From contig NZ_CAKZNK010000091.1 of NCBI RefSeq assembly GCF_937129525.1, forward strand, positions 1 through 55,453: 55,453 nucleotides of DNA, in the 5' to 3' direction. Positions 9,601-53,414 of the stretch are shown piece after piece (the stretch's first letter is position 1; each line of letters starts with the position of its first letter). Below the pieces are notes generated by a model, which saw only the letters and a list, made by a program, of their open reading frames with translations, ran no database searches and had not been told where the DNA came from. Both the position numbers and the translations under genes were made by a program. Origin of the DNA: an uncultured Chloroflexus sp. Lineage in GTDB: Bacteria; Chloroflexota; Chloroflexia; Chloroflexales; Chloroflexaceae.

Positions 9601-9990
9601 GGCGTTGATCGTGCCGGTCGCATCAGGCGCTGGCAACGGCGCGCCGGTTGCGCCACCGGCGAGTTGTACGAGGTAATACTGACCTGGAGCGAGAGTGCCA
9701 CTCAGCAAGACTACCGGATTGCTGCCAAAATTACCGGTGCCGGTGGCGCTGGCATACTGAATTGACAGGCCACTCAAAGAGACCGTTGTTGTGCCACGAT
9801 TGAATATCTCAACAAAATCATTGGTATACGGCGCGCCGCTGTTTCCACCGCCTCCGTAGACCTGACTGATAACCAGATCGGCGCTCACAGCGCGCGCCAC
9901 TGGTTGCCAAACGCCGAACGGCGCCAGCCCAAACGCAATCGCCAGCAGTAACAGGGTTAGACGACGGATACCACTCAATGCAGGACGCAT
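6634..9990 (-). CDS. secreted multidomain nuclease (LTD - OB-fold - endonuclease/exonuclease/phosphatase - LamG-like)
   Basis: The start is set at 9990, where AGAGGTG lies 8 bases upstream, giving 1118 residues. A signal peptide comes first ('LTLLLLAIAFGLAPFGVW'). A lamin-tail domain follows ('ISQVYGGGGNSGAPYTNDF'), then an ExeM-like OB region. The EEP domain has 'VMEMENDGYG', 'VNHFKSKG', 'IIGDLNSYAKEDP' and 'TSDHDPVVVG', the metal and catalytic residues. After it come an Ig-like repeat with 'ATDDRSGVVEIAYRVDGG' and a C-terminal concanavalin-like domain. It resembles ExeM/NucH extracellular DNases, which degrade external DNA for phosphate or biofilm turnover. The gene is monocistronic. Confidence 0.88.
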   Translation of the reverse strand: MRPALSGIRRLTLLLLAIAFGLAPFGVWQPVARAVSADLVISQVYGGGGNSGAPYTNDFVEIFNRGTTTVSLSGLSIQYASATGTGNFGSNPVVLLSGTLAPGQYYLVQLAGGATGAPLPAPDATGTINASATAGKFALVNSTSGLACNGGSTPCSPAQLALIVDLVGYGSANFFEGAPAPALSNTTAALRNSNGCSETDNNASDFTAGAPNPRNTASPTNPCSSAPPPPPMVGNCPDVPNTTLISQIQGVTNISPCATEEVLVEGVVVGDFEGPSPNLRGFYVQEEMADWDADPLTSEGIFVFNGNNNNVSLGDLVRVRGTVSEFQGQTQISAAQITVVGSGTVDPVDVTMPFPDADYLERFEGMLVRFPMKLVVTEHFQLGRFGQVVMSAEDRLYQPTSIYPPGPLASALQAANDLNRIIVDDNLQNQNPDPILFGRGGNPLSASNTLRGGDSVTGLVGVMTFTWSGNAASGNAYRVRPVGDLSDLSPGGGAPVFVAENPRPVGPPDVGGRITVVGMNLLNYFNTFSGCTNGLTGGTTDCRGAENATEFARQVNKTVAAIIALNPAVLGVMEMENDGYGPSSAIADLVNRLNAATAPGTYAFIDVDAATGQIDALGNDAIKVSFIYQPALVTPVGQTAALNSTTFITGGDGAPRNRAALAQAFAENATGARFVVTVNHFKSKGSPCDAPDAGDGQGNCNIVRTNAANTLAAWLATDPTGVNDPDVLIIGDLNSYAKEDPIRALEASGYENLIERFAGANAYSYVFNGQWGYLDYALANASLGAQVTGVAEWHINADEPNVLDYNTNFKSAGQISSLYAPDFYRTSDHDPVVVGLDLDGVSPTTTASVSGVVNPLCPPDCYAGSTTVTLTATDDRSGVVEIAYRVDGGSFQPYTAPFTLSGEGVYTVEFFARDGAGNVEPTQSKIVKVSPFPASSTLDSFNRANGRLGSNWSGATQRDQYRIVDQAVVVEKGGLALWRPTVFGADQEAFFRLTAINPTGQHHTLALKVLGNRGQNGALLVSYDAANQQVVVEALVPGQGFATIATFDATLQAGDLLGARARADGTIEIFVRCERIGVADSRPVAGNRYVGASGRIGVWFHNSAGAAFDDFGGGNLTP

Positions 9991-10291
9991 AAATACTGCA
10001 CCTCTTTGATACGGCACGCTATTCGCGCGGCAGGCATATCGAACGAAAACACAACGAGGGCAGGCTTGCGAGGAAGCCTCTCATTGCGTTTACAGCTCTC
10101 AGGGCCAACCGATCACGAAGAGCGCACAAGCGACAACTCCCCAACCGCGAGATGACCATGCGGCATATCGGTAGGGAAATGAGCGGAATGCTGCGCGCAA
10201 TGGTTGAACAATCAGGTACCGCTATGATAGCGGCAAAACATGAAATCGGTGTTAAGCGCAGGCTAAAAAGCCGTACCGTTCAGATAAATAT

Positions 10292-34966: not shown

Positions 34967-35077
34967 CCCTTCCAACAATTCTGAGTCTATGCATAGATTG
35001 AAAGCTCTACCGTGAGCCGAAATTGTTGAAAGACCACTGCCCTTCCAACAATTCTGAGTCTATGCATAGATTGAAAG
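34967..35077 (+). CRISPR. two-repeat, one-spacer CRISPR mini-array
   Basis: Two identical 38-base repeats, 34967-35004 and 35040-35077, flank a 35-base spacer. The repeat contains the perfect palindrome TCTATGCATAGA and ends ATTGAAAG on the plus strand, the usual type III crRNA 5' tag, so crRNA would be read from this strand. The second repeat ends 2 bases from the stop of the CARF-HEPN gene and the first begins 10 bases from the csx15 start codon. No leader fits upstream. The spacer carries AATTGTTG, complementary to CAACAATT in the repeat. Confidence 0.85.
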
Positions 35078-35079
35078 AC

Positions 35080-36210
35080 TTATCCAAGCAAATGTTCAAG
35101 TTTACTGCATGTTTCTCTCACTTTTTTGATCACTGTCCCAGACTTAGGAGCATTGCGTGACATGCCAGCATGCGCCAGTGAGTTTCGAACCTCTCTCACT
35201 TCATTCCATAAATCGCGAATCTGCTCGTACTCTGGTTGCTGATTGCTTGCAGGCACTCGACTGTTGAGCTTCTCCTCTGCCTCATTACGCGCTGTCTTAT
35301 CAAACAGATCGCCATTATCATAGAAGACTACCAGCGAAACGAGCCACTCCCGGGAACTGGTAATCGCCTGGACATACAAGCCTTTTTCGATATACCACTT
35401 AATCATTGCCAGTTGCTTACGAAGCACCTCTTTTGCCCTTGCTGGCTGATGCGGATCAGATAAGCCGAAAACTCCATACTCTTGATGGATACGTTCGAGC
35501 AGAAGAGTGAAAGGTTGCTGTTGTACTGTTTTAGGCCCGGCATTAATCGCTGTCTCCAGTTCGACCGCCGTTTTCATAACCTCGGCAGGTCGTGAAGTCT
35601 GCAACGCATCGGTAAGCTGGCGGAGTGTCGGTGCCAATCCCTGATTTCCGGCAAGTTTGACCAGAACATCAGCGCGTCCATAGCGTAGAAAAGCATCTGT
35701 TGCTGAAGTCCAATCAAGAAGTGTTACCAGCGGAGTCAGGTCAAAGATAGGGGTGCGATTGTTTGCAGTGGCATCATAAGCGCCGTAAATCATCCGTTCC
35801 AGGGTAGCATTGCGAACAACACGCACAAACGAAGCAACAAGCAGCGCTAGCACGGGAATCGAACGAAAGCCATTCGTAATATCGAAGATTATTCGATCAC
35901 CAGGTTCGATTGCGTTCGCGATTGCAGCAAATATATCCCAAAGTTCGCCTTCATTTCGGCCCGACGGGATACGAATTGGACGGATAGGGACAACCTCGGC
36001 TACCGCACGTTCAAGATCGGCAAAGTTTTGCTTATAAGCCTCCTCGGTCACTACTACAAGAAGTTCCTTGATCTCAGACTGAAAAAAACGAGCGGTCGCT
36101 TCGGCCATGAATGCTGTGGTGCATTCCCGATTTTGATAGACATAGGTGGTCTCGCGATAGGACTGGCCTGGTCTTGTGTAACCCAGGAATGAAATTGCTT
36201 TCTTTTCCAT
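35080..36210 (-). CDS. CARF-HEPN ribonuclease (Csx1/Csx2, TM1812-like)
   Basis: The 376-residue protein has an N-terminal CARF domain ('MEKKAISFLGYTRPGQ') with the ligand-site signature 'FDITNGFRSIPVLALL' near residue 110. Its C-terminal HEPN domain carries the RxxxxH catalytic motif 'VRNSLAHAG' (Arg342, His347). Such proteins are RNases activated by cyclic oligoadenylate made by Cas10, causing collateral RNA cleavage on infection. It follows cmr6 by 18 bases, so it is made with the interference complex. Confidence 0.9.
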   Translation of the reverse strand: MEKKAISFLGYTRPGQSYRETTYVYQNRECTTAFMAEATARFFQSEIKELLVVVTEEAYKQNFADLERAVAEVVPIRPIRIPSGRNEGELWDIFAAIANAIEPGDRIIFDITNGFRSIPVLALLVASFVRVVRNATLERMIYGAYDATANNRTPIFDLTPLVTLLDWTSATDAFLRYGRADVLVKLAGNQGLAPTLRQLTDALQTSRPAEVMKTAVELETAINAGPKTVQQQPFTLLLERIHQEYGVFGLSDPHQPARAKEVLRKQLAMIKWYIEKGLYVQAITSSREWLVSLVVFYDNGDLFDKTARNEAEEKLNSRVPASNQQPEYEQIRDLWNEVREVRNSLAHAGMSRNAPKSGTVIKKVRETCSKLEHLLG

Positions 36211-36228
36211 GGTTGCTCCTGTAAGAGT

Positions 36229-37284
36229 TCAGCCGTTACTATCTCCGGTGTTACCTTCCCGCAATCTCAGCAACTGCTCATACCACTTTTTGCCCTCAGT
36301 GTTCATCTTCAATTCACGGACGCGGGCAATTAACACTTCGGCCAGCATCCGTTTGTATGTGGGATCGATCGCGAGCTGTTCCAGACGTGGCACCAGGTTC
36401 GCCAGCGTTTGCTTTTGCGCCTGGGCGATCTCTTTGCGGAACGACATAACTTGCGGCGGCTCAGCCGGTGCGCCACCAGAGGCAATATCTGCATTACCGA
36501 CTTCATCAGGCAACAGAATTGGCCTGCCATACGTATCCAGTAACCGCATCCGTCCGTAGCCGGCAGCAGTCTTCGCGCCAATCCCCAGATCACGGAGCGC
36601 CATGCCCAGAATCATCAGCGCAGTCTGCGCCCAACGTTCAGGACCGGCTACTGCGATCAGATAGCGACCGGTGGCGGTCAGGAATGGCACCGGATTGGGG
36701 CTGTCCCAATCTGCCGGTGGTTTCGGCTCATTGCCAACATAGTATTCCGGATGATGGCCGGTCACCACATCGCGCGCAAGTGGACGGTTCTGTTCTGCCG
36801 AACCGGGAATGTAGAGCGCGTCGAAAAAGGTGATGTAGCCGCTGGTATCGGTTGTGCCAAATAGAATGGTGTGATCGATCCCGCCTTTGCGCCACTCCGC
36901 GCCGTCGAGCCTGAGATGGGCATAAGCGGATGCCAGCCCCTTGAGCGCGCTGCCGGGGATGTAGGGCACGCCGTAGGTATGATGTAGCGTAATACCTGTC
37001 TCGGCAACACCTTTGTCGCCCAACCCTACAATCAGCCGCCCCTGAACGTCGGCAATCGCCCACTGCACACCGTCCTGTTCATCAATGGCTGCCCGATAGC
37101 GATCGTAAAATGTTCGGTACTCCTCGGGAATGCCGAGTTTGGCTGTTTGCTCCATCAATGTACGTTTCGCTTCGGTATCGAGCCGCGCATTGAAATAGCG
37201 GTCAAACCACAGGCTGGCATTGGTAGAACCGGTATCTGCGGTTACCTCTTCCAGGACACGTCGTTGTCCGCTAAACTCAGGCAT
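36229..37284 (-). CDS. cmr6: Cmr6, type III-B RAMP protein
   Basis: Cmr6 caps the Cmr backbone with Cmr1. The 351-residue protein has the RAMP features 'GVPYIPGSALKGLASAYAHL' and the Gly-rich loop 'GIGAKTAAGYGRMRLL' near residue 285. The start at 37284 has GGAGGGAG upstream and overlaps the cmr5 stop by 8 bases. Its C-terminal tail of about 60 helical residues is longer than in some homologues. Confidence 0.92.
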   Translation of the reverse strand: MPEFSGQRRVLEEVTADTGSTNASLWFDRYFNARLDTEAKRTLMEQTAKLGIPEEYRTFYDRYRAAIDEQDGVQWAIADVQGRLIVGLGDKGVAETGITLHHTYGVPYIPGSALKGLASAYAHLRLDGAEWRKGGIDHTILFGTTDTSGYITFFDALYIPGSAEQNRPLARDVVTGHHPEYYVGNEPKPPADWDSPNPVPFLTATGRYLIAVAGPERWAQTALMILGMALRDLGIGAKTAAGYGRMRLLDTYGRPILLPDEVGNADIASGGAPAEPPQVMSFRKEIAQAQKQTLANLVPRLEQLAIDPTYKRMLAEVLIARVRELKMNTEGKKWYEQLLRLREGNTGDSNG

Positions 37285-37657
37285 TGCTCCCTCCCTCCGC
37301 ATCTGCGGTAACGCCAAGCACCGACTGCGCGTACCGCTTAAACCAGAGCAGCGCCGCCAGCGCCTCCTCGGTCAGCAACATGTACTCGGCCAGATCGGCC
37401 TCGCGACTCGCCGTTCGCAACGCCTGATCATCACGAAACTTAAGCGCCGTCGCCAGATCAGGCAGAATCTCCCGCTGCGCATCGGTGCGCGTGGCGACAA
37501 ATTCCAGCGCCTGCGCCAGTCCTGCTGAACGGATCAGCACTGGCAACTTATGGGCCATCGAGCCGTACTTGTTCTTGTCGCTCTCGTTGAACTGACCGTT
37601 GCGCGCGGCAACCAGCCGGTATACTTCGGCGGCAAAGCGTTGTTCGCGTGTTTGCAT
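37277..37657 (-). CDS. cmr5: Cmr5, type III-B small subunit
   Basis: The 126-residue all-helical protein starts 'MQTREQRFAAEVYRLV'. It has 'YGSMAHKLPVLIRSAGLAQA' and 'LLTEEALAALLWFKRYAQSV', the typical Cmr5 helices that line the Cmr4 filament and bind target RNA. The ATG at 37657 is preferred over an upstream GTG-type start because GGAGAG precedes it. Confidence 0.9.
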   Translation of the reverse strand: MQTREQRFAAEVYRLVAARNGQFNESDKNKYGSMAHKLPVLIRSAGLAQALEFVATRTDAQREILPDLATALKFRDDQALRTASREADLAEYMLLTEEALAALLWFKRYAQSVLGVTADAEGGSNA

Positions 37658-37659
37658 GG

Positions 37660-38561
37660 TTAGCTTCTCTCCTTCCCCTTCACCAGCCGCATGCGGCACA
37701 ACCCTCTCCCAACGGTTGCCTTGCCACCAAACTGCAATGAACGCTGCGCCAGATCATTTAGCCGTTCGATCAGTTCCGCTTCATTCTGATGACGTTTGCG
37801 CACCTCTGCCGTAGGAGCGAAGATGGTCAGACCATAAAGAACTGTCTCGGCAGGCAGCGCCTCTTCGTACCAGAGCGCGCCTTTGGCCACCGTTTTGTTG
37901 TCATTCAGCCGGTTGCGGGCGATGACCTCGATGGCGGTCGAAAGCAGGAAGGTGAACACATTGTCGCCGACGATGCAGAGGCGCGGCGCGAGCATAGCGG
38001 CCCATTCCTGATCGTTCGGCGGGAAGATGCGTGAACTCAACCAGGCTGCCCACTGCGCTGCGTACTGCGGTTCTGGCTGAAGATCGAGGTCTTCGAGCAC
38101 CACCCGTCTGGTCTGCTGACCGTTGCGTTGCCACTCAACCCGAATTGCTGCCTGCTCAATAACATCGCACGCTTCATCGGCCACTGTTGGGATCGGTGGC
38201 AGATCGCTCAGTCCGGCATCCGTAGCATCGCGCGCGAAGCGGCGCAACACGTAGGGCGACGTTACCCAGGCAAAGGTGCCGCGCAGCGCGCGCACCGGTA
38301 ACAGCAGCAACCTGGCATCGGCAACCTGGAGCGAGCCGGCATACTCGCTGGCATTCTCAGTCTTTGGCCCAACAGCAGATACGTTACGTCTTCGTCACCG
38401 GACTTATCGCGCAGCACTCCCTTCACCGACGAGCCGGGCAGGTAGGGAATGCCGGTTGCCTTCTCGCGCGCGATCGGCAGGTCGATCACTCCGGAACCCT
38501 GCCCGGTACCGGCGTGCAGTGGCGAAAGCGCGTGGAGGAAGTAGAGGTATGTTGTAGCCAT
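37660..38561 (-). pseudogene. cmr4: cmr4, type III-B backbone RNase, broken by a one-base frameshift
   Basis: The N-terminal frame (38561-38262) reads 'MATTYLYFLHALSPLHAGTG', then 'GVIDLPIAREKATGIPYLPG' with Asp27, the residue that cuts target RNA, up to 'LLLG'. The rest (to 37660) is in another frame: 'KTENASEYAGSLQVADARLL' through 'GKATVGRGLCRMRL', a good Cmr4 C-terminal half. The frames join if one C is added in the GGGCC run at 38366-38370, which would restore 'LLGPKTENASEYAG'. A deletion, a sequencing error and programmed frameshifting are all possible. Combined length of about 300 residues is normal. Confidence 0.88.
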
Positions 38562-38579
38562 AAAACCACCTCGTCAAAT

Positions 38580-39875
38580 CTAAAGCAGATCGAGAAATGC
38601 CTGAATAACATCGGGCTGACAACCATTGGGCGGTGGAACTCTCAGCGGTGGGATCTGGCATGCTTCCGCCTGGATCAACGTTGCCTGAACCTCGTGAACT
38701 GAACGATTGTCCTGCTTCAGCACGAGGGGCACGGGGAGTTGCACACCCTCTAGGATCACTGCCAGCCCGATCGCCTTGCCGTCACGACAGGCTACCGGTT
38801 TGAGAATGAGCGGACTGGCGAGGCGGCTGAGATTCTCGCCCTCCAGGGTGACATCTAAACCTGGATCGTGCGGCATATGGAAAACGATCGGCAGGCCAAA
38901 AGCGGCTCGCGGGAATTTGCGAATCCGGCGATTGGCATGCGGCCCGCGTGGTGGTCGTTTGAAAAGGAGACGGATAGCGTTCGGCTCTGGACAATCGCTA
39001 TGACCATATCTGTTCAGCCGGCCATTCATTCCCCGGCGCTGTTGACGGAAACTCTGGAGGCGGTTGATCAGTTCATGCCAGACATCGATGGCGCTGTTAC
39101 CCACCACAACTTTAAAGCGGAGCTGCCGGTTGAGATGAGGAATACCTGCTGGCCAGACTCCCTCTGCGACGTGATGATTGAGCTGTGCCGTTAGCCATTG
39201 CCCGAACTGTCTGTCATCACAGGGTGGCAGGTTTTGCGCGGCGGTTCCGTTTACCTTCTCAAGGCGCAACGCCCCGAAGCCGCGTCGGGTACGCGCGCCA
39301 ATCCCCCCAAATGTTTCCCAGGCCCACAGCGCCGCCGCAACATCGTTTTGGTATGTTTTGGGAAAGGTGATCACCAGCGTGAAACGCACATCTTTATACA
39401 CCGGCTTGATCTGTAATCCAGGTCTCTGCGCTGCGCGCTCCGGCTGCAGTGGAAACGCGGCATAGGCGGGCACGACCGATCCTCCGCGTGGTTGAAGACG
39501 ATTGCCTGCCATCTCGAAAGGAACATCAGGCGTGCCATTCTTCCAATCCCTCACCACCACCTGCACCGACGACTGCCCCCCAAGCGATCTCCCGTTCTCC
39601 TCGCGCGCCGGTCCGCCCCAGATTGCCTCTTCAGCATCGCGCAGTGCCTTCAGATCGGCACCAAACTGGCCGCCACGAGTAGCGCGCCACCAAAACCGGA
39701 GCTGGCCACGAATTTCAGCAGCCCGCACAACGGTGATCGGATCAGGGCTGGCCGGATCAATGCCACCGCCGAAGAGTGGTGTGATCAGGCTGTACTCACG
39801 GACTTCGGTGATCATTTCAGCGGCTGGCCGCAATGTTAGCTTTGATGGCTCTTTGACCGGTGGTTTCCGGCTCAT
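38580..39875 (-). CDS. cmr1: Cmr1, type III-B RAMP protein
   Basis: The 431-residue protein has 'YSLITPLFGGGIDPASPDP', 'RAAEIRGQLRFWWRATRGGQ' and 'WETFGGIGARTRRGFGALRL', the hallmarks of Cmr1, which sits at the 3' end of the crRNA. The ATG at 39875 overlaps the cmr3 stop as ATGA and has GGAGGTG upstream. Cmr4 follows after 18 bases. Confidence 0.93.
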   Translation of the reverse strand: MSRKPPVKEPSKLTLRPAAEMITEVREYSLITPLFGGGIDPASPDPITVVRAAEIRGQLRFWWRATRGGQFGADLKALRDAEEAIWGGPAREENGRSLGGQSSVQVVVRDWKNGTPDVPFEMAGNRLQPRGGSVVPAYAAFPLQPERAAQRPGLQIKPVYKDVRFTLVITFPKTYQNDVAAALWAWETFGGIGARTRRGFGALRLEKVNGTAAQNLPPCDDRQFGQWLTAQLNHHVAEGVWPAGIPHLNRQLRFKVVVGNSAIDVWHELINRLQSFRQQRRGMNGRLNRYGHSDCPEPNAIRLLFKRPPRGPHANRRIRKFPRAAFGLPIVFHMPHDPGLDVTLEGENLSRLASPLILKPVACRDGKAIGLAVILEGVQLPVPLVLKQDNRSVHEVQATLIQAEACQIPPLRVPPPNGCQPDVIQAFLDLL

Positions 39876-41032
39876 GACGACACCTCCATCTTTACAGGAT
39901 TCCCATTCCACACGCCAAGTGCGGCCAGACCGAAACCGTCAAGCCGGTCCTGGGGCGCGTCGCTGATGTTTTGCATCCAGATCGCATCGATCCATCGCTG
40001 AATCACTTCATCATCGGATGCGGTAAGCGTGAGAAAGTAGACACTGCCTGCCGGCGCTAGCCGGCGGGTTGGTTTCGGTTTCCCGATGTTGAGATCCCAG
40101 CCTGAGACGACCTGAGGCCGCGCTATGGCTGCCGCCTGGAGGGTGGGTTGCACGCCGTGACGCGCTTCCAGCAACCAGGTCGGTCGGTAGCCTTGCGTGA
40201 AGTGCGCTGGCGTCAACAGGATCACTCGACATGCGCGGTCTTTGATGATCTGCTGACGCACCTCAGGAGGACAGGCGGGAAAATCCTGTTTTATCTGCCG
40301 CCAGGCGACCAGCCTTCGCTCGCCGCCGAGCGGCGCTAGTCCGCCACTCCAGTGGGGAAACTCGTGACCGCTTTCGATAATCAGCGCAAGACGTTTCCGC
40401 TCCGGCCCGGTAAATTCCAGCCCGCTGGTCTGAAACAAACGGCCCTCTTCAGCGGTTTGGGTGGTCGGTTCGATTGCGACGTGAGTGCGACTCTCCATCA
40501 AGAGACCACCGATGCCCAGCTCCTGAAGACTGCACGGGCCATCGGCAGGCTTCTCCAGCCAGGTGAGCAGGGCTGACCAGTACCAAAACCGCGGCGGCGC
40601 ACCCAACGGTTTTTCGTTGACAATCCGTCGCGGACCGACCAGGTATGGCTCGCCACCCCGCGGCATTGCACAGACACTGCCGTCTGGTAATTGCAGAGGC
40701 ACAAGCTGCAACCGGCGTGGATCGGCGCTCGCTGCCTCGGCTCGCAGCAAAAGAGCATCTGCCGGCGCCGGTAGCAACCACTCTTGGAAGGAACCATCAT
40801 CACGCAACATTGCCAGCAGCGGCCCGCGCACCCCCATCTTCAGAACATCGTTCACTTTCGCGGTGTCAAACACACCATCGGCTGACAAGCCGTACAGCTT
40901 GCGCGCGCCACCGGTGACGGTTGACGGGAAAGGGAAACTTAACGAACGCGCCCGCGCGCCCGGATCAGGCCCAAATGGACGGCCATCGCGCGCGATGAGC
41001 GGATCACGCGGCTCAATGATCCAGGTTGGCAT
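39872..41032 (-). CDS. cmr3: Cmr3, type III-B crRNA tag-binding protein
   Basis: The 386-residue protein begins 'MPTWIIEPRDPLIARDGRPF', the Cmr3 signature, and has 'LSFPFPSTVTGGARKLYGL' and 'GLEFTGPERKRLALIIESG'. Cmr3 binds the 5' tag of crRNA and contacts Cmr2. The ATG at 41032 has GGAGG 5 bases upstream and overlaps the end of cmr2 by 20 bases. Confidence 0.93.
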   Translation of the reverse strand: MPTWIIEPRDPLIARDGRPFGPDPGARARSLSFPFPSTVTGGARKLYGLSADGVFDTAKVNDVLKMGVRGPLLAMLRDDGSFQEWLLPAPADALLLRAEAASADPRRLQLVPLQLPDGSVCAMPRGGEPYLVGPRRIVNEKPLGAPPRFWYWSALLTWLEKPADGPCSLQELGIGGLLMESRTHVAIEPTTQTAEEGRLFQTSGLEFTGPERKRLALIIESGHEFPHWSGGLAPLGGERRLVAWRQIKQDFPACPPEVRQQIIKDRACRVILLTPAHFTQGYRPTWLLEARHGVQPTLQAAAIARPQVVSGWDLNIGKPKPTRRLAPAGSVYFLTLTASDDEVIQRWIDAIWMQNISDAPQDRLDGFGLAALGVWNGNPVKMEVSS

Positions 41033-42866
41033 ACTCACCTCCTGCCAGCGGCATTCCGGCTATATCGGCAGCTCGCGCCAGTAAACGGGCAACAATCATC
41101 TCTTCAGCGACCGCGCGGATTGTCGTAAGCGCATGACCGTTACCACTATGGGCGTTTAGCGCGGCAAAGAGCGCCTCACGGATCTCATCGGCCAGCTTCT
41201 CATCCTGCCCGCGTCGCGGCTGCTTTCGGCCAATGATTCGTTTAGCTTCGGCAAAAGCTGCCTCTGAGGGTAAGGTCGGTTGCCCGAACGTTGGCGTCAG
41301 GCGTTCCACCAGATCGCGCAACTGAAATGCGGCTCCATCTGGCAACACATCGAGACGATGCATCGTTGTGAATTGTTGCAAACGTTGATCAAGCTCGCCC
41401 CAGTGACCTTGAACAGTAACGTCAGCGCCGCTACGCTTGCTCAGCGTAATCGCCAGCGCATTCTTGCCGGCTACCGCCTTGGCCGCCCGTTCGGCGGCGC
41501 GCGCCATTGCCAGCGCGTCGCTTAGCGGTTCCAGATGATGCACAATCGCGATCCCCACAGATAATGTTGGCGCGTGTCCTTCGGCATCGGTAAACTGCAC
41601 AGTGACGCCGGCAGGATTGATCACAGCCGCAAACTGGCGATGCAACTCTTGCGCGCACCGGAGCAGGGTATGCAGTGGCAGAAACGCCAGCACATCATCC
41701 CCGCCAGCATAGACCAGACTGCCTTCGTGCTCTTCGACAATGCTGCGCGCCTGCGCCGCAAATTTCGACAGGCGACGCGACAACTCGATGTGACCGTCGA
41801 TGGTAGATTGATGGTCGATCGTCGCTCCCATCCGATCGCCATCGGCAAGCAAGATAGCGTAGTAGGGATCGGGCGACTCGGCTTCCCAGCGCCGGTACAG
41901 CTCAGCCAGTGCCCTGCCCGCCTTCTCCCGTTGCGCGCGCATTTCGCTCCTGTCCGAGGCTTCGCTAATCAATTCATGCAACCGGCTCTCCAGCAACAGA
42001 CCACCATCGTAGTGGTCGATGATGGGATGCCTGCGAGCAGTGCGCTCTTCACCGAGACGCTTACGGGCAATGGATTCGAGTGTCTCGATATATTGCTCCC
42101 AGGCTGCGCGCGCCTGCGCCTGATCATTTCTGACCACCCGATGTAACACCGGTCGGACAGCGACATCCGACGTACTGGCAAATGCCAGTTCCACCGGTTG
42201 AGCGTGGCGTTTGAACAGATCAACCCCGGAGAGGCGCTCAGCCGGGCCAGCCTTGTATTGCTCGTACAGAGCGTCGATCTTCTGCTGATACTGCGGGTCA
42301 TTTCTTCCCTTGGGATAAGCGCTTTCGGGAATAACCGACTCTCGTAGACCGTCGATCGACGATTTCGGCGTATTGCTCCCCCAGGTTACCGGCGCAAAGT
42401 CGCGTGTCGCTTTGCGCGCCGCCATGAGCGCCTCGACCTTTCGGCGCGCCTGGACATAGTCAGTCTCATCTTTCAGCTCTACCGCTGCCCAGTAGACCTC
42501 CGGTAAATCACCGATCTGAGCCTGTGCAGCCTCATCGTTAATCGGTCCTTTAATTCGCCCACGCGCATCTTGCCAGAGTGCCATCAGCCGATCCTGCACT
42601 GCCCTAACTACATGCTCACCCAGCGTTTTCGGATCGGTCGCAATGATTGCCAGGATCTTATTGGCCACATTTGCCTCAGCGACACTGGCCGGCAGCGCTG
42701 CCGGGAAGATCAGCCGCGCCCCGTCGCTCTGCTCAATCTGCTGTGCCGCGACCCTTGCCAGTTCGCTCAACAGCCACGAGCCAAACCACAGATCCCGGGT
42801 GCGGCGAGCCGCAGCGATGAACTCTTGCACCGGCCCGAGCGTGACCAGGAAGAGATATCTGATCAT
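41013..42866 (-). CDS. cmr2: Cmr2 (Cas10), type III-B cyclic-oligoadenylate synthase, without HD domain
   Basis: The 617-residue protein begins directly with the first palm-like domain, 'MIRYLFLVTLGPVQEFIAAA', then 'FGSWLLSELARV'. The second palm has 'YAGGDDVLAFLPL' (GGDD near residues 388-391), which makes cyclic oligoadenylate from ATP. 'ILLADGDRMGATID' comes before it. No HD nuclease domain is present, so DNA cutting is not expected and defence should run through second messengers. The ATG at 42866 has GAGGGG upstream; the longer frame to 42959 is not homologous in style. A 213-base gap separates it from the regulator. Confidence 0.93.
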   Translation of the reverse strand: MIRYLFLVTLGPVQEFIAAARRTRDLWFGSWLLSELARVAAQQIEQSDGARLIFPAALPASVAEANVANKILAIIATDPKTLGEHVVRAVQDRLMALWQDARGRIKGPINDEAAQAQIGDLPEVYWAAVELKDETDYVQARRKVEALMAARKATRDFAPVTWGSNTPKSSIDGLRESVIPESAYPKGRNDPQYQQKIDALYEQYKAGPAERLSGVDLFKRHAQPVELAFASTSDVAVRPVLHRVVRNDQAQARAAWEQYIETLESIARKRLGEERTARRHPIIDHYDGGLLLESRLHELISEASDRSEMRAQREKAGRALAELYRRWEAESPDPYYAILLADGDRMGATIDHQSTIDGHIELSRRLSKFAAQARSIVEEHEGSLVYAGGDDVLAFLPLHTLLRCAQELHRQFAAVINPAGVTVQFTDAEGHAPTLSVGIAIVHHLEPLSDALAMARAAERAAKAVAGKNALAITLSKRSGADVTVQGHWGELDQRLQQFTTMHRLDVLPDGAAFQLRDLVERLTPTFGQPTLPSEAAFAEAKRIIGRKQPRRGQDEKLADEIREALFAALNAHSGNGHALTTIRAVAEEMIVARLLARAADIAGMPLAGGEYANLDH

Positions 42867-43079
42867 AGATTGCCCCTCAACGTATCGTATGACGCCACTC
42901 ATCAACGAATCCAGGTAGCGGGTATAGCCAGCAATTCGCCTCCTCCCTGGCAAACACATTCCACTCCCATAGAACAGGCACTGTTAGCGCCAGTGTACTA
43001 TCACGCTCCATCGCGCACATCATCACCACTGCTGATAGAAACTCAGCACTCCTGCTGATCTCGACAGGGCGACAATTGA

Positions 43080-43940
43080 CTACACTTGCTCAATGAAAAC
43101 GGAGAAATGCTCCCGCACGAAACGGTAATCAACGCTCTCGGTCAGCCCCCAGGCAATGCGACATTCGTTCAGAATAACCGTCTTGTGCGAATTGACGGTG
43201 CTCAGTGAGATACAGAGATGATCGGCTACTTGATCGGGACGCAGACCTTTCGCAAAGGCGCGCAGCACGTCGCGTTGGCGACCGGTGAGCCGATCCCAGA
43301 CCTGCCGACAGCGGGCCTCGTCACCCGATACCAGGCCAGGGATGCGTTGCCGGATCGCTGTCGGATCGGCCAGTTGGCGGAGCGCCGGGAGGTACTCGCC
43401 CCACGGCACGATCGGAACGCTAAGCAAGCGGAAGCCGTCGGTCGGCGCGAGGTGCATCTGCGTGCCGTCCTTGACCCGTTCGAGCGTCTCGTCGGGGGTG
43501 TACATATGCCAGACCTGATCGCGATGGTCGCAAAAGAGGAAAGCAACCGAAACCGCCAGCAGCGCTATCATGCGGCGTCCGCCACTGAGACAGAGATGGA
43601 GTCGTCGCTCCTCTTTCTTAAGATCGATGATCAGGTTACGGATGGTAGTAAAGACAGCATTGACATCGGCATCGGTGCGAATATCGTCGAGTTCGCTACC
43701 GTCACGGGTGACAGTCACACGCCGCAATCGACAGCGTTGCCCGCGGTAGTGGTCATCGATGAACTCTTGCTGCAATCGCTGCCATGCCCGGCGCGTGCGT
43801 TCACGGTCGCGGTTAAGCGGGAGAATGTAGACTTCGCGGATCGGTTCACCCCGTTCCAGCAGGGCATCAAGAGCGAAGGTAACAACCTGCGGCTGACCGC
43901 CAAGCGTAGCGATCAGGGTAGCTCCGGTATGATCTGTCAT
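43080..43940 (-). CDS. CARF domain - LuxR-type helix-turn-helix regulator
   Basis: From ATG 43940 the protein has 286 residues. The N-terminal half is a CARF domain: 'LIATLGGQPQVVTFALDALL', 'EVYILPLNRDRERT' and 'RLHLCLSGGRRMIALLA', resembling the NE0113 CRISPR-associated family. The C-terminal part is a LuxR-type HTH: 'LTGRQRDVLRAFAKGLRPDQ' then 'VADHLCISLSTVNSHKTVIL'. It should bind a cyclic oligoadenylate and DNA. It lies first in the cmr direction and divergent from the Csx3 fusion, so both are likely targets. Known CARF-HTH proteins such as Csa3 use a winged helix; a LuxR-type head is unusual. Confidence 0.85.
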   Translation of the reverse strand: MTDHTGATLIATLGGQPQVVTFALDALLERGEPIREVYILPLNRDRERTRRAWQRLQQEFIDDHYRGQRCRLRRVTVTRDGSELDDIRTDADVNAVFTTIRNLIIDLKKEERRLHLCLSGGRRMIALLAVSVAFLFCDHRDQVWHMYTPDETLERVKDGTQMHLAPTDGFRLLSVPIVPWGEYLPALRQLADPTAIRQRIPGLVSGDEARCRQVWDRLTGRQRDVLRAFAKGLRPDQVADHLCISLSTVNSHKTVILNECRIAWGLTESVDYRFVREHFSVFIEQV

Positions 43941-43946
43941 AACCTG

Positions 43947-43975
43947 GTGTAAAGCTTGTAAAATTATTACACAAG
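43947..43975. promoter_or_regulatory. inverted-repeat operator between the CARF-LuxR and Csx3-fusion genes
   Basis: GTGTAA (43947-43952) and TTACAC (43967-43972) are perfect complements 14 bases apart. CTTGT (43955-43959) and ACAAG (43971-43975) form a second, interleaved pair. They occupy most of the 78-base divergent gap. A dimeric LuxR-type protein could bind here and control both genes, including its own. Confidence 0.45.
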
Positions 43976-44018
43976 ATGATGTGATCATAGCATATCTAAT
44001 CGCACAGTGAAAAGTACT

Positions 44019-45173
44019 ATGCATTCATTTCCGGCAATCATGATCGGCGGACCACCACACAGTGGGAAATCGGTGCTGACCTATTTACTCTCTCAGCATT
44101 TACGTCAACGACAGGTCGCCCACTACGTGCTACGGGCATGCCCGGACGGAGAAGGCGACTGGAGCCAGGAGACGCATCCCGAGACGGTGCGTCTGCTGCG
44201 CCAGAAGGGTGCGTTCAGTACAGAGTTCGTCGATCGAGTGTGTCGTGACATCGCGCAACGGCATTTGCCGTTGCTGGTCGATGTCGGTGGTCGCCCAACC
44301 CCGGATCAAGAGCGGATCTTTCGGCATTGCACGCACGCGATCTTGCTGTCTGCAACTCCGGAAGGACTGACTGAATGGCACGATTTTGCCGAACGGGCCG
44401 GTGTGTCGGTGATCGCCAGGTTGCAGTCAGTACTCAACGGTGACGATCGGATAGAAGCCGAAAGGCCGGTGCTGCGCGGTCAGATTGGCGGCCTGGAACG
44501 GTATACAGGTACCGGTGGTCTGATGGTAGAGGCATTGGTTAGACGACTTGAGCGATTAATGTCCTTCGCTGCTGATGAATTGCGCAACCGCCTCTTTCCG
44601 CTGGCGCCAACCGAGATGGTGGTCGATCTCGATCAACTGGCGCAGAATATCGGTATGACCCCCGGCGCGCGCTGGCAGGCGACCGATCTCACTAAAGCGC
44701 TGACGTATCTGCCATCGACCGCGTTGTCAATCTATGGCCGCGGCCCAAACTGGTTGTATGTTGCGCTGGCACTCTATGCCGCTCCTCATCCCATTACGCT
44801 GTTCGATCCACGTTTAGGCTGGATCTCGCCGGCAAAGGCAGAGTGCAGTCCGCAGCCGTCAATGACAATGCTGACATGGCAGCTTCGACCACAACCGGCG
44901 GCAACCTGGTTAGAATTCAAATCATTGCATTCCTATCTCGATTACGAGACGATGCCGTCACTTGAGATACCGGCCCTCGCCTCAGATCAAGGCGTGATCA
45001 TCAGCGGGAAACTCCCTCACTGGCTGATGACAGGGCTGGCGCTCGCCTACGACCATCACCCGTGGGTAGCCGTGATGCAGGCCCAACAGTACGATCGGGC
45101 GATTGTGGTCGCGAGCCGGCTCAACAGCTATGCGTTGGGGCAGGAAATACCACTGGTCATCGGGAATGAGTAG
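44019..45173 (+). CDS. P-loop NTPase fused to Csx3-like domains (putative ring nuclease)
   Basis: The 384-residue protein (a GTG at 44007 would add four residues) starts with 'AIMIGGPPHSGKSVLTYLL', a Walker A P-loop. After about 210 residues there are two Csx3-like units. The first has 'SIYGRGPNWLYVALALYAAP' and 'FDPRLGWISP'. The second has 'VIISGKLPHWLMTGLALAYD', 'HPWVAVMQAQ' and 'AIVVASRLNSYALGQEIPL'. Csx3 degrades or binds cyclic tetra-adenylate, ending type III signalling. Csx3-ATPase fusions are known; the tandem arrangement is less so. It is divergent from the CARF regulator and probably controlled by it. Confidence 0.8.
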   Translation: MHSFPAIMIGGPPHSGKSVLTYLLSQHLRQRQVAHYVLRACPDGEGDWSQETHPETVRLLRQKGAFSTEFVDRVCRDIAQRHLPLLVDVGGRPTPDQERIFRHCTHAILLSATPEGLTEWHDFAERAGVSVIARLQSVLNGDDRIEAERPVLRGQIGGLERYTGTGGLMVEALVRRLERLMSFAADELRNRLFPLAPTEMVVDLDQLAQNIGMTPGARWQATDLTKALTYLPSTALSIYGRGPNWLYVALALYAAPHPITLFDPRLGWISPAKAECSPQPSMTMLTWQLRPQPAATWLEFKSLHSYLDYETMPSLEIPALASDQGVIISGKLPHWLMTGLALAYDHHPWVAVMQAQQYDRAIVVASRLNSYALGQEIPLVIGNE

Positions 45174-45358: not shown

Positions 45359-45505
45359 AATCCGGTCATTCCAGGCCGGATTGGGCCAGAAACTTGCCTG
45401 TCTGAACGGCAGGCATGGTTGGCTGCGCGCTTCAAAGCGTATCTGACGCTGATCTGTCCAAACAGATCCGGCGCAGCGCTGAACGCGCCGAGGCGTATGC
45501 GCCTC
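45359..45505. other. cluster of four stem-loops upstream of the RCC1-repeat gene
   Basis: The gap 45174-45573 has no gene. Within 150 bases are four perfect inverted repeats: AATCCGG/CCGGATT (45359-45382), TGCCTG/CAGGCA (45395-45415), GATCTGT/ACAGATC with a CCAA loop (45451-45468), and GAGGCG/CGCCTC with a TATG loop (45490-45505). This is compatible with a structured 5' leader or small RNA. I see no known riboswitch consensus. Confidence 0.4.
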
Positions 45506-45573
45506 AGGCGATGATGTCCTGCACAAGATACCGGGCTGTTACTGGTGAAACCGGTCATGAAAGGAGAATGACG

Positions 45574-47649
45574 ATGCACTGGAACACCATCCGCATTGCG
45601 ATCACACGCTTCGCGTTCGCGCTGGTCATCCTGTTCACCGTAGCTATCCTGGCAGTCATGCCTTCAGCAGTTGTTGCTTCCTTTGGCCACAGCGCTGTTC
45701 AGTCAATCTCTCGCCCCCATCAGACCGCCGAACTCCAGCAATCCATATCGCCTCAGGTGATCGCGCGCGGCGATTACACGTGTGTGATCAACAGCGCCGG
45801 TCAACTCTACTGCTGGGGCGCCAATGCAACCATCCCCGAAGATCTCGGGCCGATTATCCAGTTGAGCGCCGGCGGCAATCACATCTGTGCCGTTACCAGT
45901 ATCAATACGTTACGCTGCTGGGGCGATAATTCCTACGGTCAGATCGCACTGCCAGTTGACATGGGGCCAATCGTGCAGGTTGGCGCCGGCTCCTATCACA
46001 CCTGCGCCGTTGATAGCTCAGGCACGTTGCGCTGCTGGGGAGCAAACGGCAGCGGTCAACGCACAGTGCCGCCGGATCTCGGTGTGGTCACGAGCGTGAG
46101 CGCTGGTGGAAGTCATACGTGCGCTGTGCTTGCCGACGGCACGTTGCGTTGTTGGGGCGCCAACTGGAACGTCCAGGTATCAGTGCCTGCCAACCTGGGA
46201 CCGGTCAGTCAGGTGAGCGCTGCCAGCAATCATACCTGCGCGGTGAAGACCGATGGCATCCTGCGTTGCTGGGGCGCCAACTGGGTCAGCCAGGCATCAG
46301 TGCCTGCCAACCTGGGACCGGTCAGCCAGGTGAGCGCTGTCAGCGATCATACCTGCGCGGTGAAGATCGATGGCCCCCTGCGTTGCTGGGGCGACAATAC
46401 GGCTGGTCAGGCAACCGTGCCGGACTCTCGGCCCAATCACGCAGGTCAGCGCCGGCAATAATCATACCTGCGCGTTCAAGACTGATGGATCCCTGCGCTG
46501 CTGGGGGAACAATGCCTTCCGCAAGAGTACGATCCCTGAACCACTCGGCCCGGTAAGCTACTTCAGCGCAGGCGGTGGGTACACCTGCGCCATCAAGACC
46601 GATGGTACCCTGCGCTGCTGGGGGTAATAACGCTAACGGTCAGGCGACCGTGCCAAACGATCTCGGCCCGGTCACGCAGGTCAGCGTCGGCGTCAGACAC
46701 ACCTGTGTCGTGAAGACAGACAGTCGCGCGCGCTGTTGGGGCAACAATGCTTTCGGTCAGGCAGCGGTGCCGGCAGATCTCGGTCTGGTGAGCCAGATCA
46801 GTGCCGGAAGAAACGCGACCTGCGCAGTTACGCTCGATGGCACTGCGCGCTGTTGGGGGGGAGGCGCTCGTCCCAAACAATCTTGGTCCGGTCAGCCAGA
46901 TCGATGTCTCCACCGATGTTCCCCTGCTTTTTGGCCCAGATAACTTTGCCTGCGCTATCTGACGTGATAACCAGCTCCGCTGCTGGTTCCTGCCTCGGGG
47001 TTCATTGATCGATGTGCTCGCCGACGTTGGCCCGATCACTCAGCTCGGCGTTGGCGGCACGCATGTCTGCGTTGTCACCGTTAATGGCGTTCTCCGTTGT
47101 GAGGGAAATAACAGATATGGTCAGGTAAGCATTCCTCTCACCCTGGGAACAGTCACGCAGGTCAGCGCCGGCTCAGCTCACAACTGCGCTATGAAACCCA
47201 ATCGCACCCTGGGCTGCTGGGGAGCGAACGGCTCTGGCGAGGCAACAGTGCCGCTCGATCCACTCGATACTTCATCTGCGCCGATAGTCGTTGCCATCAC
47301 TCGCGCCGAACCCAACCCGACCAGCGCAGCCAGCGTCGCGTTCACCGTTACCTTTGCGAAAGCGGTAACAGGCGTCGATCCATCCAATTTCACACTCACG
47401 ACGACCGGCAATCTTTGGGGTTCGCAGGTCATCGATGTGACCGGCGGCCCAGCGTTCTATACGGTTGTAGTGAACACCGGCAGCGGGCGCAGCACGCTCC
47501 GCCTGGACGTGAAATCATCGGGCACGGGCATTACCGATCTCAACGGAACGCCGCTTGCCGAGGGCTTCACCAACGGTCAATCTTACACCATCGAGCGCGT
47601 CGGGCAGGGCGCGCCGCCAACGATACATCTCCCGCTGATCATGCGCTGA
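45574..47649 (+). pseudogene. RCC1-repeat secreted protein, broken by frameshifts
   Basis: AAGGAG precedes the ATG at 45574. A signal peptide ('FAFALVILFTVAILAVMPSA') leads into about eleven RCC1-type repeats built on 'VSAGGSHTCAVLADGTLRCW' and 'GANWNVQVSVPANLGP'. Frame changes occur near 46425 (an extra T), 46620 (a run of five G where four fit) and 46857 (seven G where six fit). A stop TGA lies in frame at 46960. The last frame has a Big/SbsA-like domain ('VTFAKAVTGVDPSNFTLT') and ends 'TIHLPLIMR'. As written it cannot yield one product. RCC1 repeats form seven-bladed propellers. It may be decaying or switched by G-run slippage. Confidence 0.85.
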
Positions 47650-52276: not shown

Positions 52277-52337
52277 TCACCCTCGCCATATGCTACAATC
52301 ATAACAAAAAGCCAGATTGTCGTCAGGAGTCCATCCT

Positions 52338-53414
52338 ATGCCCTTCAGCCACGGCCACGCGCTCGTCATCGGGGTCGGTTCCTACCAACACGAACCGCGC
52401 TTAAACGTCCCGATCACAGTCGCTGACGCGCAGGCAGTAGCGAGCGTATTGCGCGATCCCCGCTTCTGCGGCTACCCGGAACCGCAGGTTACGCTACTCA
52501 CTGATACCGAAGCCACCCGCAAGAGCATCCTCGCCGCGCTCGACAACCTCGCGCAGCGCGCGCAATCCACCGATACAGTATTCATCTTCTTCAGTGGCCA
52601 TGGCGAATACAGCGCCGATCGAGTCTACCAGTTGACCACTCACGATACCCGCATGACCGAGAATCGTGAAGTTATCCATGGCACGGCCATTAGCCAGACG
52701 GAGCTGATCGAGCGTCTGCGCGCCATTCAGGCCGGGCGGCTCTTCCTGCTGATCAATGCCTGCCACGCCGGCGAACTCTCGCCGGTGCTGAGCGGCAGCC
52801 CCTTCACAGGCCAACCGCTGCCCCAGAACGTTGCCAGCGCAGCGCTCGCCACCGGCAGCGGACGGTTCATCATCACCGCCTGCCGCGAAGGGCAGGTTGC
52901 ATACATTGGGCCTGGCCCCCTTACCATCTTTGCCCAGGCCCTGACCGACGGTCTGCGCGGGCAGGGTCTAAGTGGCCGGGCAGGCTATATCAGCATTTTC
53001 GATCTCTATACCCATCTCTATTTCGCCGTTCGCGAAGCGGTTGAGCAACACGTTCCCACCGCAATGAAACAGATATTCGGCGCAACACAGGAACCAGAGT
53101 TAACCGCGCTCAAGGGAGTTGGCCCCTGCCCGGTCGCGCTCTACCGCGGCGCAACCTCACCCGGTGACTTCCCAACCGACCACACCCTACCCGACCGCGC
53201 CGCAGTGCGCTGGGTGAAACCGGATCGCAGTCAGTGGGCATTACAGCAGATCGGTGATCGCAATGTTAATGTTAGCGATTCCGTTACCAATAGTCCCATC
53301 ATCACTGGCGACAACAACATCGTGGGTAACATCACTACCGGCAATGTGAGCGGTACCGGCATCGCCATCGGCCATCAGGCGCAGGCCCGCGCGTCGCAGA
53401 GCGGCAGCGAGTAA
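52338..53414 (+). CDS. caspase-like (C14, metacaspase-type) protease with C-terminal STAND-pairing motif
   Basis: The 358-residue protein starts at ATG 52338, with AGGAG 8 bases upstream. The p20-like fold carries 'TVFIFFSGHGEYSADRV' (His88) and 'LFLLINACHAGELSP' (Cys142), the catalytic dyad. 'HALVIGVGSYQHEPRLNVP' opens the domain. After residue about 310 there is a Gly/Asn-rich tail: 'NVNVSDSVTNSPIITGDNN', 'IVGNITTGNVSG' and 'TGIAIGHQAQA'. That tail recurs at the N-terminus of the next protein. It is probably an executioner protease held inactive until the STAND partner assembles. Confidence 0.88.
   Translation: MPFSHGHALVIGVGSYQHEPRLNVPITVADAQAVASVLRDPRFCGYPEPQVTLLTDTEATRKSILAALDNLAQRAQSTDTVFIFFSGHGEYSADRVYQLTTHDTRMTENREVIHGTAISQTELIERLRAIQAGRLFLLINACHAGELSPVLSGSPFTGQPLPQNVASAALATGSGRFIITACREGQVAYIGPGPLTIFAQALTDGLRGQGLSGRAGYISIFDLYTHLYFAVREAVEQHVPTAMKQIFGATQEPELTALKGVGPCPVALYRGATSPGDFPTDHTLPDRAAVRWVKPDRSQWALQQIGDRNVNVSDSVTNSPIITGDNNIVGNITTGNVSGTGIAIGHQAQARASQSGSE

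Follow-up and report, generated by a model that had tools for sequence, protein, structure and literature searches.

The window, meaning the whole 55,453-nucleotide stretch of DNA analysed here, encodes a protein in which a CARF domain is fused to a LuxR-type HTH (CARF-HTH). We show that, within one clade, pairing of this gene with a gene for an AAA-Csx3 protein is near-universal, and that the cmr genes of type III-B systems are a usual but looser company of the pair. We hypothesize, with modest confidence, that the CARF-HTH protein is a transcription factor that senses cyclic oligoadenylate (cOA) and acts on the divergent gap between the two genes, changing the transcription of AAA-Csx3 and of its own gene, and perhaps that of cmr. 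The features of the window that bear on this reading are the following.

43080–43940, minus strand: CARF-LuxR(GerE) HTH protein, 286 aa, a predicted cOA-responsive transcription factor.
43356–43919, minus strand: CARF domain, about residues 8–195, from Pfam Cas_NE0113 and the Sso2081 alignment.
43146–43301, minus strand: LuxR/GerE-type HTH, about residues 214–265, from Pfam GerE, the NarL profile match and AlphaFold2 helices.
43941–44018: 78-bp divergent gap, a predicted shared control region, from the conserved divergent layout and an excess of extended -10-like sites.
43984–44013, minus strand: promoter-like site facing the CARF-HTH gene, with TTTTCA, 18 nt, and TATGAT with a preceding TG (extended -10).
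44019–45173, plus strand: AAA-Csx3 (PADLOC C3a67), a P-loop NTPase domain and two Csx3 domains, the usual divergent partner in the clade.
41013–42959, minus strand: Cas10/Cmr2, with GGDD in the palm domain as read in translation, the probable cOA maker.
35080–41038, minus strand: remainder of the type III-B genes, namely cmr3, cmr1, cmr4 (two frames), cmr5, cmr6 and csx1 (CARF2-HEPN).

Translation of the CARF-HTH gene gives 286 residues and a stop. A longer frame in the list of open reading frames (314 aa, from 44024) overlaps the start of AAA-Csx3, and the ATG at 43940 is the better fit to the family alignment. The first-pass annotation had described an NE0113-like CARF half joined to a LuxR-type HTH, and both domains score above their Pfam cut-offs: Cas_NE0113 over residues 16–195 (6.1e-47; 160.6 bits against a cut-off of 23) and GerE over residues 217–257 (4.8e-8; 32.9 bits against 23.5). 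Its distinction between this HTH and the winged helix of the Csa3 type also holds, as the match is to GerE and Csa3_N remains under its Pfam cut-off (17.9 against 27 bits). The HTH half further matches NarL (profile, 4.6e-9); NarL and VraR bind DNA through an HTH of this type. Across 28 aligned family members, window protein included, Cas_NE0113 occurs in all and GerE in 27 (at 1e-3). The PADLOC model PDLC01855, judged without a curated PADLOC cut-off, is matched over residues 6–285 of 286 (model positions 4–287 of 288; 3.5e-129). Scores for the NCBIfam models TIGR02584 (NE0113; 30.7 against 80.65 bits), TIGR03642 (Csx14; 50.7 against 90.35 bits) and NF040581 (the Crn1 equivalog; 13.5 against 125 bits) all fall below the cut-offs. 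The window genome carries one CARF-HTH copy, on contig C91; four other matches in that genome cover the HTH side only.

Structural incompetence of the HTH, which the first-pass annotation had named as a result that would count against a regulator, is not what we find. The domain is conserved and is predicted to fold, with pLDDT block means of 86–97 at residues 211–280 and of 60–66 at the linker (residues 191–210), in an AlphaFold2 model with a mean pLDDT of 87.8. The model runs from the CARF fold through a long linker helix to the HTH and then to an extra C-terminal helix, with predicted helices at residues 193–217, 220–230, 235–242, 246–264 and 272–285. The last of these follows the HTH, is conserved and is preceded by a short insertion. 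The top ranks of the Foldseek list for this model are held by the Crn1 ring nucleases Sis0455 and Sso2081, Cad1-CARF and Csa3, and the response regulators StyR and VraR rank lower. In VIA-align, the model superimposes on Cad1-CARF with Z 17.8 (164 aligned, rmsd 2.9), on Sso2081 with Z 17.1 (155 aligned, rmsd 2.4) and on Csa3 with Z 13.8 over residues 6–286 (rmsd 13.6).

Motif I of the CARF half reads GGQ (residues 14–16), aligned to G9-T10-S11 of Sso2081, and motif II reads GRR (residues 121–123), aligned to G104-R105-K106. Among 28 family members found by profile, motif I is GGQ in 26, GGN in one and GGK in one, with GTS in none; all 28 have R as the second residue of motif II, and 26 have R as the first. 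Distant relatives have GSE, GSK, GTE, STE, GLQ, GQR, GAR or GEQ as motif I and mostly GRK as motif II. We rejected a tally of GGQ in 81 of 81 proteins (73 by pattern, 8 by eye) because the scan behind 80 of the loci used one GGQ-containing pattern; that scan is therefore uninformative about motif I, and it may be biased towards the paired clade. According to the text covered of PMC10018336, Ser11Ala severely lowers cleavage by Sso2081 while Ser11 is seemingly not critical in Sis0455, Arg105 and Lys106 of Sso2081 help both to recognize and to cleave cA4, and the paper proposes motif I as a hallmark of CARF domains that cleave. The retained basic pair of motif II suggests that the CARF half binds cOA, and GGQ in place of GTS suggests that it would not cleave cOA by the Crn1 route; together, these two features point to a sensor.

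Divergence from the Csx3 fusion, noted in the first-pass annotation for the window, turned out to be the most conserved feature of these loci. GTDB contigs were scanned with a single peptide pattern, GGQ[PS]Q[VI][VI]T[FL], and the best 80 of 84 relatives were taken. AAA-Csx3 is divergent from and adjoins CARF-HTH in 76 of these 80 loci, including L038 and L091, which were scored as paired after reading beyond an over-long frame. The four exceptions are a contig edge (L040), a partner on the same strand (L095) and two loci with none detected (L062 and L109). At L109, a Csx1-like gene (8431–10005, minus strand) occupies the divergent place usual for AAA-Csx3. The 80 loci are labelled Chloroflexota, except for L055 and L058, which have no phylum label; they contain near-copies (e.g. 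L066, L068 and L111) and overlap a set of 400 genomes of the same phylum.

Those 400 genomes were searched by profile, independently of the motif-based scan. For AAA-Csx3 at 1e-30, 52 rows were found in 47 genomes, and a divergent CARF-HTH gene lies beside 48 of the 52; of the other four rows, three have their start no more than 89 bases from a contig edge, and the last is a second fragment of one of these genes. For CARF-HTH, both parts of PDLC01855 are covered in 64 rows from 56 genomes, a count from which HTH-only and CARF-only rows were dropped and in which one kept row (G124) is partial. A divergent AAA-Csx3 from the 1e-30 list lies beside 48 of these 64 rows. The 16 without it comprise 13 distant relatives, one row with a partner truncated where the contig ends (G022:C63), the partial G124, and G076:C23. 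A raw tally of 374 of the 400 genomes was discarded because the matches listed mostly involve just the HTH, and because 9 of the 14 control genomes match as well.

A tree of 95 proteins groups the paired genes in one set with support of 100/100. The pairing label changes three times on this tree, compared with a mean of 15.1 when shuffled, a number that one gain and two losses would account for in the sample analysed. The unpaired rows were chosen from the profile-search list, L040 (contig edge) and L095 (same strand) were labelled as paired and the partial L161 was omitted, so the single origin is valid for this sample only. Distance matrices for 19 common loci correlate at r 0.82 for CARF-HTH and AAA-Csx3, r 0.46 for CARF-HTH and Cas10, and r 0.49 for AAA-Csx3 and Cas10. 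Each r, though not the difference between them, was set against 2000 permutations, and in no case was it reached. With all available pairs, the distances of CARF-HTH correlate at 0.76 with those of AAA-Csx3 (72 loci), at 0.36 with those of Cas10 (22) and at 0.32 with those of Cmr3 (39). Given the pairing and the tracking of distances, the conserved unit is the CARF-HTH/AAA-Csx3 pair rather than a regulator plus cmr.

Full-length relatives also occur outside the paired clade. Seven of the 13 distant ones without AAA-Csx3 lie directly ahead of cas10, two lie ahead of a cmr1-cas10 run, three lie between cmr6 and csx1 inside the operon, and for one no Cas gene was found. Distant CARF-HTH genes placed between cmr6 and csx1 were observed at L158, L159 and L160, with GQR or GAR as motif I. 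All ten proteins picked from 80 + 14 + 2 loci, among which L095 and L109 are main-family members, have Cas_NE0113, and seven have GerE above its cut-off. GerE is below the cut-off of 23.5 in L150 (20.4) and L153 (19.5); in the Rhodothermus protein it is not among the listed matches, and HTH_38 barely passes. The Rhodothermus protein and three other scanned sister proteins are fitted best by PDLC01851. This Rhodothermus homologue, named 'CRISPR-associated ring nuclease' in RefSeq, is carried ahead of csm1-csm5 by two of 72,556 plasmid records, both from Rhodothermus marinus (L116, 8980–9885; L117, 5980–6885), and no AAA-Csx3 was seen alongside. The CARF-HTH gene had no match in 50,697 phage records, and a single-protein query had none in viral contigs; with these results and only the two Rhodothermus plasmid records, phage or plasmid carriage was rejected.

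The placement at the head of the cmr genes, also proposed in the first-pass annotation, stands: the Cas10/Cmr2 frame lies downstream with the same orientation, 120 bp or more away. In the window translations, GGDD is retained in Cas10 and an R-x4-H motif in csx1. A genome survey for CARF-LuxR fusions beside type III loci had been suggested as a check. Core type III genes are present in 58 of 83 loci, a set made up of the 80 loci, the window and the two plasmids; of the 56 loci with 3 kb or more of sequence downstream, 50 have them. Here 'core type III genes' means any Cas10 or RAMP, since the cmr6 profile drifted to general RAMP proteins (71 matches); the steadier link is that to AAA-Csx3. Neither Cas10 nor RAMP was detected around the CARF-HTH/AAA-Csx3 pair in six loci with nearly 10 kb of downstream sequence (L060, L070, L071, L073, L079 and L094). 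For five of these six genomes, a Cas10-type palm match occurs elsewhere in four and none in the Dictyobacter vulcani draft genome; since the palm profile passes its cut-off in the E. coli control too, Cas10 cannot be called from a palm match by itself, and these matches are weak evidence.

Other observations concern the type III-B operon and its genome. The window genome (G000) has four Cas10-palm matches above the cut-off (contigs C91, C12, C127 and C152) against one CARF-HTH gene. Its cmr4 (37660–38561, minus strand) is split into two overlapping frames of 99 and 216 aa; several relatives have one frame, so the split points to an error in assembly or to damage to the gene. Just past csx1 (34968–35077, plus strand), a 37-nt CRISPR-like repeat occurs twice, both copies perfect, with one spacer; a search of the draft genome that allowed up to 2 mismatches found no further copy.

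The partner, AAA-Csx3, starts at an ATG at 44019 or a GTG at 44007, and its model has a pLDDT of 91.8. In this model the P-loop domain looks MinD/ParA-like; the matches listed are MinD/ParA-type NTPases and similar folds, and AAA+ is not among them. The C-terminal Csx3 domain aligns with AfCsx3 (Z 14.6), and the more N-terminal one was recognized from two Pfam Csx3 stretches and from common GRGPxWL and FDPRLG motifs read by eye. With its register to AfCsx3 placed by eye on these two motifs, domain 1 retains the cA4-binding face: the D69 position is D in 64 of 73 partner proteins and the R71 position is R in 59 of 73. Our histidine count covered the positions of H57 and H60 of Crn3, which are not conserved as histidine in either Csx3 domain of the 73 proteins. 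Every position of both Csx3 regions is H in at most 7 of 73, save residue 257 (H in 33 of 73), which is one column from the H57 position, so that, if the register were off by one column, some family members could retain H57 after all. According to the text covered of PMC7371418, ring nuclease activity was not detectable in either the H60A or the D69A variant of AfCsx3. The first-pass annotation had called the partner a signal remover, a description that these counts weaken: with H57/H60 not retained and D69/R71 retained, removal of the signal appears doubtful, and it is more likely that the partner binds cOA.

Two further features lie beyond the partner. Next to it, 45415–47649 (plus strand) encodes HTCAV..G.LRCWG repeats, RCC1-like by eye, over several frames. 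About 7 kb past it is a caspase-like peptidase C14 protein (52317–53414, plus strand; Pfam 8.9e-21), which matches the NCBIfam model caspase_w_EACC1 under its cut-off.

The divergent gap was searched for promoter-like and operator-like sites. In the window gap, a promoter search found two overlapping sites against 0.5 expected. By eye, TGCTAYNAT is present in seven of seven aligned gaps and was not seen in those of three other close relatives (L008, L010 and L011). We assembled a larger set by removing near-duplicates, any gap longer than 330 nt and any that did not have both landmarks, which took the number from 104 to 98 to 72. The extended -10-like pattern TGNTANNNT occurs towards CARF-HTH in 16 of the 72 gaps (30 shuffles: mean 6.1, maximum 10) and towards Csx3 in 14 (mean 7.7, maximum 12). 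The plain -10 pattern exceeded the shuffles towards Csx3 only; towards CARF-HTH, its 23 of 72 gaps are no more than the best of 30 shuffles (23). An EM motif search with palindromic and plain models found no shared operator across the 72 non-redundant gaps, and its output consisted of Shine-Dalgarno-like and start-codon patterns. A 21-bp imperfect dyad, CTTGTGTAATAATTTTACAAG, in the window gap was discarded as evidence, 102 of 200 shuffles being equally good. From the arrangement of the genes we infer that the gap is a putative operator and that the partner is the main target, and the layout suggests control of AAA-Csx3, and of its own gene, by CARF-HTH.

We propose that the CARF-HTH protein acts as a transcription factor and probably forms a homodimer. 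Its CARF domains would sense cOA made by Cas10, and its LuxR-type HTH would bind the short divergent gap. A nucleotide alarm would then change the transcription of AAA-Csx3 and of CARF-HTH itself, and the downstream cmr genes may be affected as well. The first-pass annotation had extended this control to the complex; as the cas10 frame begins at least 120 bp beyond the regulator and the distances track AAA-Csx3, control of the complex is less secure than control of the partner. Alternatively, the protein could be chiefly a ring nuclease, with a CARF half that degrades cOA and C-terminal helices that do no more than stabilize the dimer, a role that the HTH region may also have in Csx1. This would agree with the two Crn1 enzymes among the nearest solved folds, with the RefSeq name of the Rhodothermus homologue and with the placement of the related Csx14 in the Crn1 family, in the text covered of PMC12409355. 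We nevertheless regard it as distinctly unlikely, given that not one of the 28 members found by profile has GTS as motif I, that loss of Ser11 is so damaging in Sso2081 (if seemingly not in Sis0455), that the Crn1 score is far under its cut-off, and that the conserved HTH has matches to LuxR domains that bind DNA.

Two other readings take more account of the partner. The protein could be a transcription factor whose CARF domain answers another ligand or a protein, perhaps AAA-Csx3, much as RtcAB is reported to bind the CARF domain of RtcR in the text covered of PMC9650030. The matched distances of CARF-HTH and AAA-Csx3 would also suit such a physical complex; we consider this unlikely, however, in view of the retained basic motif II, the GGDD Cas10 in the locus and the core type III genes in most loci with sufficient downstream sequence. 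It is also conceivable that the two proteins form one cOA-controlled NTPase complex on DNA, with transcriptional control secondary. The correlation of distances (r 0.82) and a partner with a conserved P-loop domain (MinD/ParA-like in the model) and a retained cA4-binding face are consistent with this post-translational role, but we give it little credence, as divergent genes with promoter-like sites on both strands are typical of a regulator and its target.

A broader proposal can also be made, which we offer tentatively and think more apt to be wrong than right. A two-protein cOA switch may have spread as one unit across Chloroflexota, with neither protein a canonical ring nuclease: CARF-LuxR would be a cOA-gated transcription factor and NTPase-Csx3-Csx3 a cOA-binding NTPase, with Csx3 domains turned from removal to sensing. 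This would give type III systems a transcriptional arm with its own nucleotide-sensing machine, apart from Csa3 and the CalpL/T/S route. In the literature searched, few cOA-responsive transcription regulators are described for type III immunity, namely Csa3 and the CalpL protease/sigma-factor route. If CARF-LuxR acts as proposed, the pair, with a promoter gap of 78 bp here, would be a tractable system for the effects of alarm nucleotides on expression. It would also put current labels right: the family is tagged as CARF only or as a ring nuclease, and its partner passes for a ring nuclease although histidine is not conserved at its H57/H60 positions.

Parts of this picture are already known. 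The NE0113 and Csa3 families were predicted in 2014 to be direct transcription regulators (Makarova et al., PMC4012209, in the text covered), and the family exists at full length in PADLOC; the association with AAA-Csx3 was not found described in the literature searched. That search, of titles and the beginnings of abstracts, turned up no paper that treats a CARF-LuxR fusion or the pairing of CARF-HTH with AAA-Csx3; supplements and the 2020 CARF classification (PMC7498327) lay outside its scope. A 2025 classification counts transcriptional regulators as cOA effectors, with CARF-LuxR not among them in the text covered (PMC12669027), and a 2024 survey of type III effectors left regulators aside, in the text covered (PMC11229360).

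Among known systems, PADLOC CARF3 (PDLC01855 and PDLC01851, 'CARF3--CARF') is the same family, with a full-length match, although its label gives the CARF only and includes neither the HTH nor the Csx3 pairing. The CARF half resembles NE0113/Csx14 (PF09623, TIGR02584 and TIGR03642), but the protein scores below the NCBIfam cut-offs. It shares the CARF fold and a GR[KR] motif II with Crn1 (Sso2081 and Sis0455), and differs in having no GTS in motif I and in its extra HTH. The partner can be compared with Crn3/Csx3 and with Csx3', a fusion of Csx3 to a kinase/transferase domain (PMC7371418, in the text covered): it carries two Csx3 stretches, the C-terminal one AfCsx3-like, but in the order NTPase-Csx3-Csx3 and without conserved histidine at the H57/H60 positions. 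Csa3 is likewise a small regulator with one CARF domain followed by a DNA-binding domain, and cA4-bound Csa3 is among the structural matches. However, Csa3 has a winged HTH, whereas the CARF-HTH protein has one of the LuxR/GerE type, with Csa3_N below its cut-off, and is bacterial and linked to type III loci and to AAA-Csx3.
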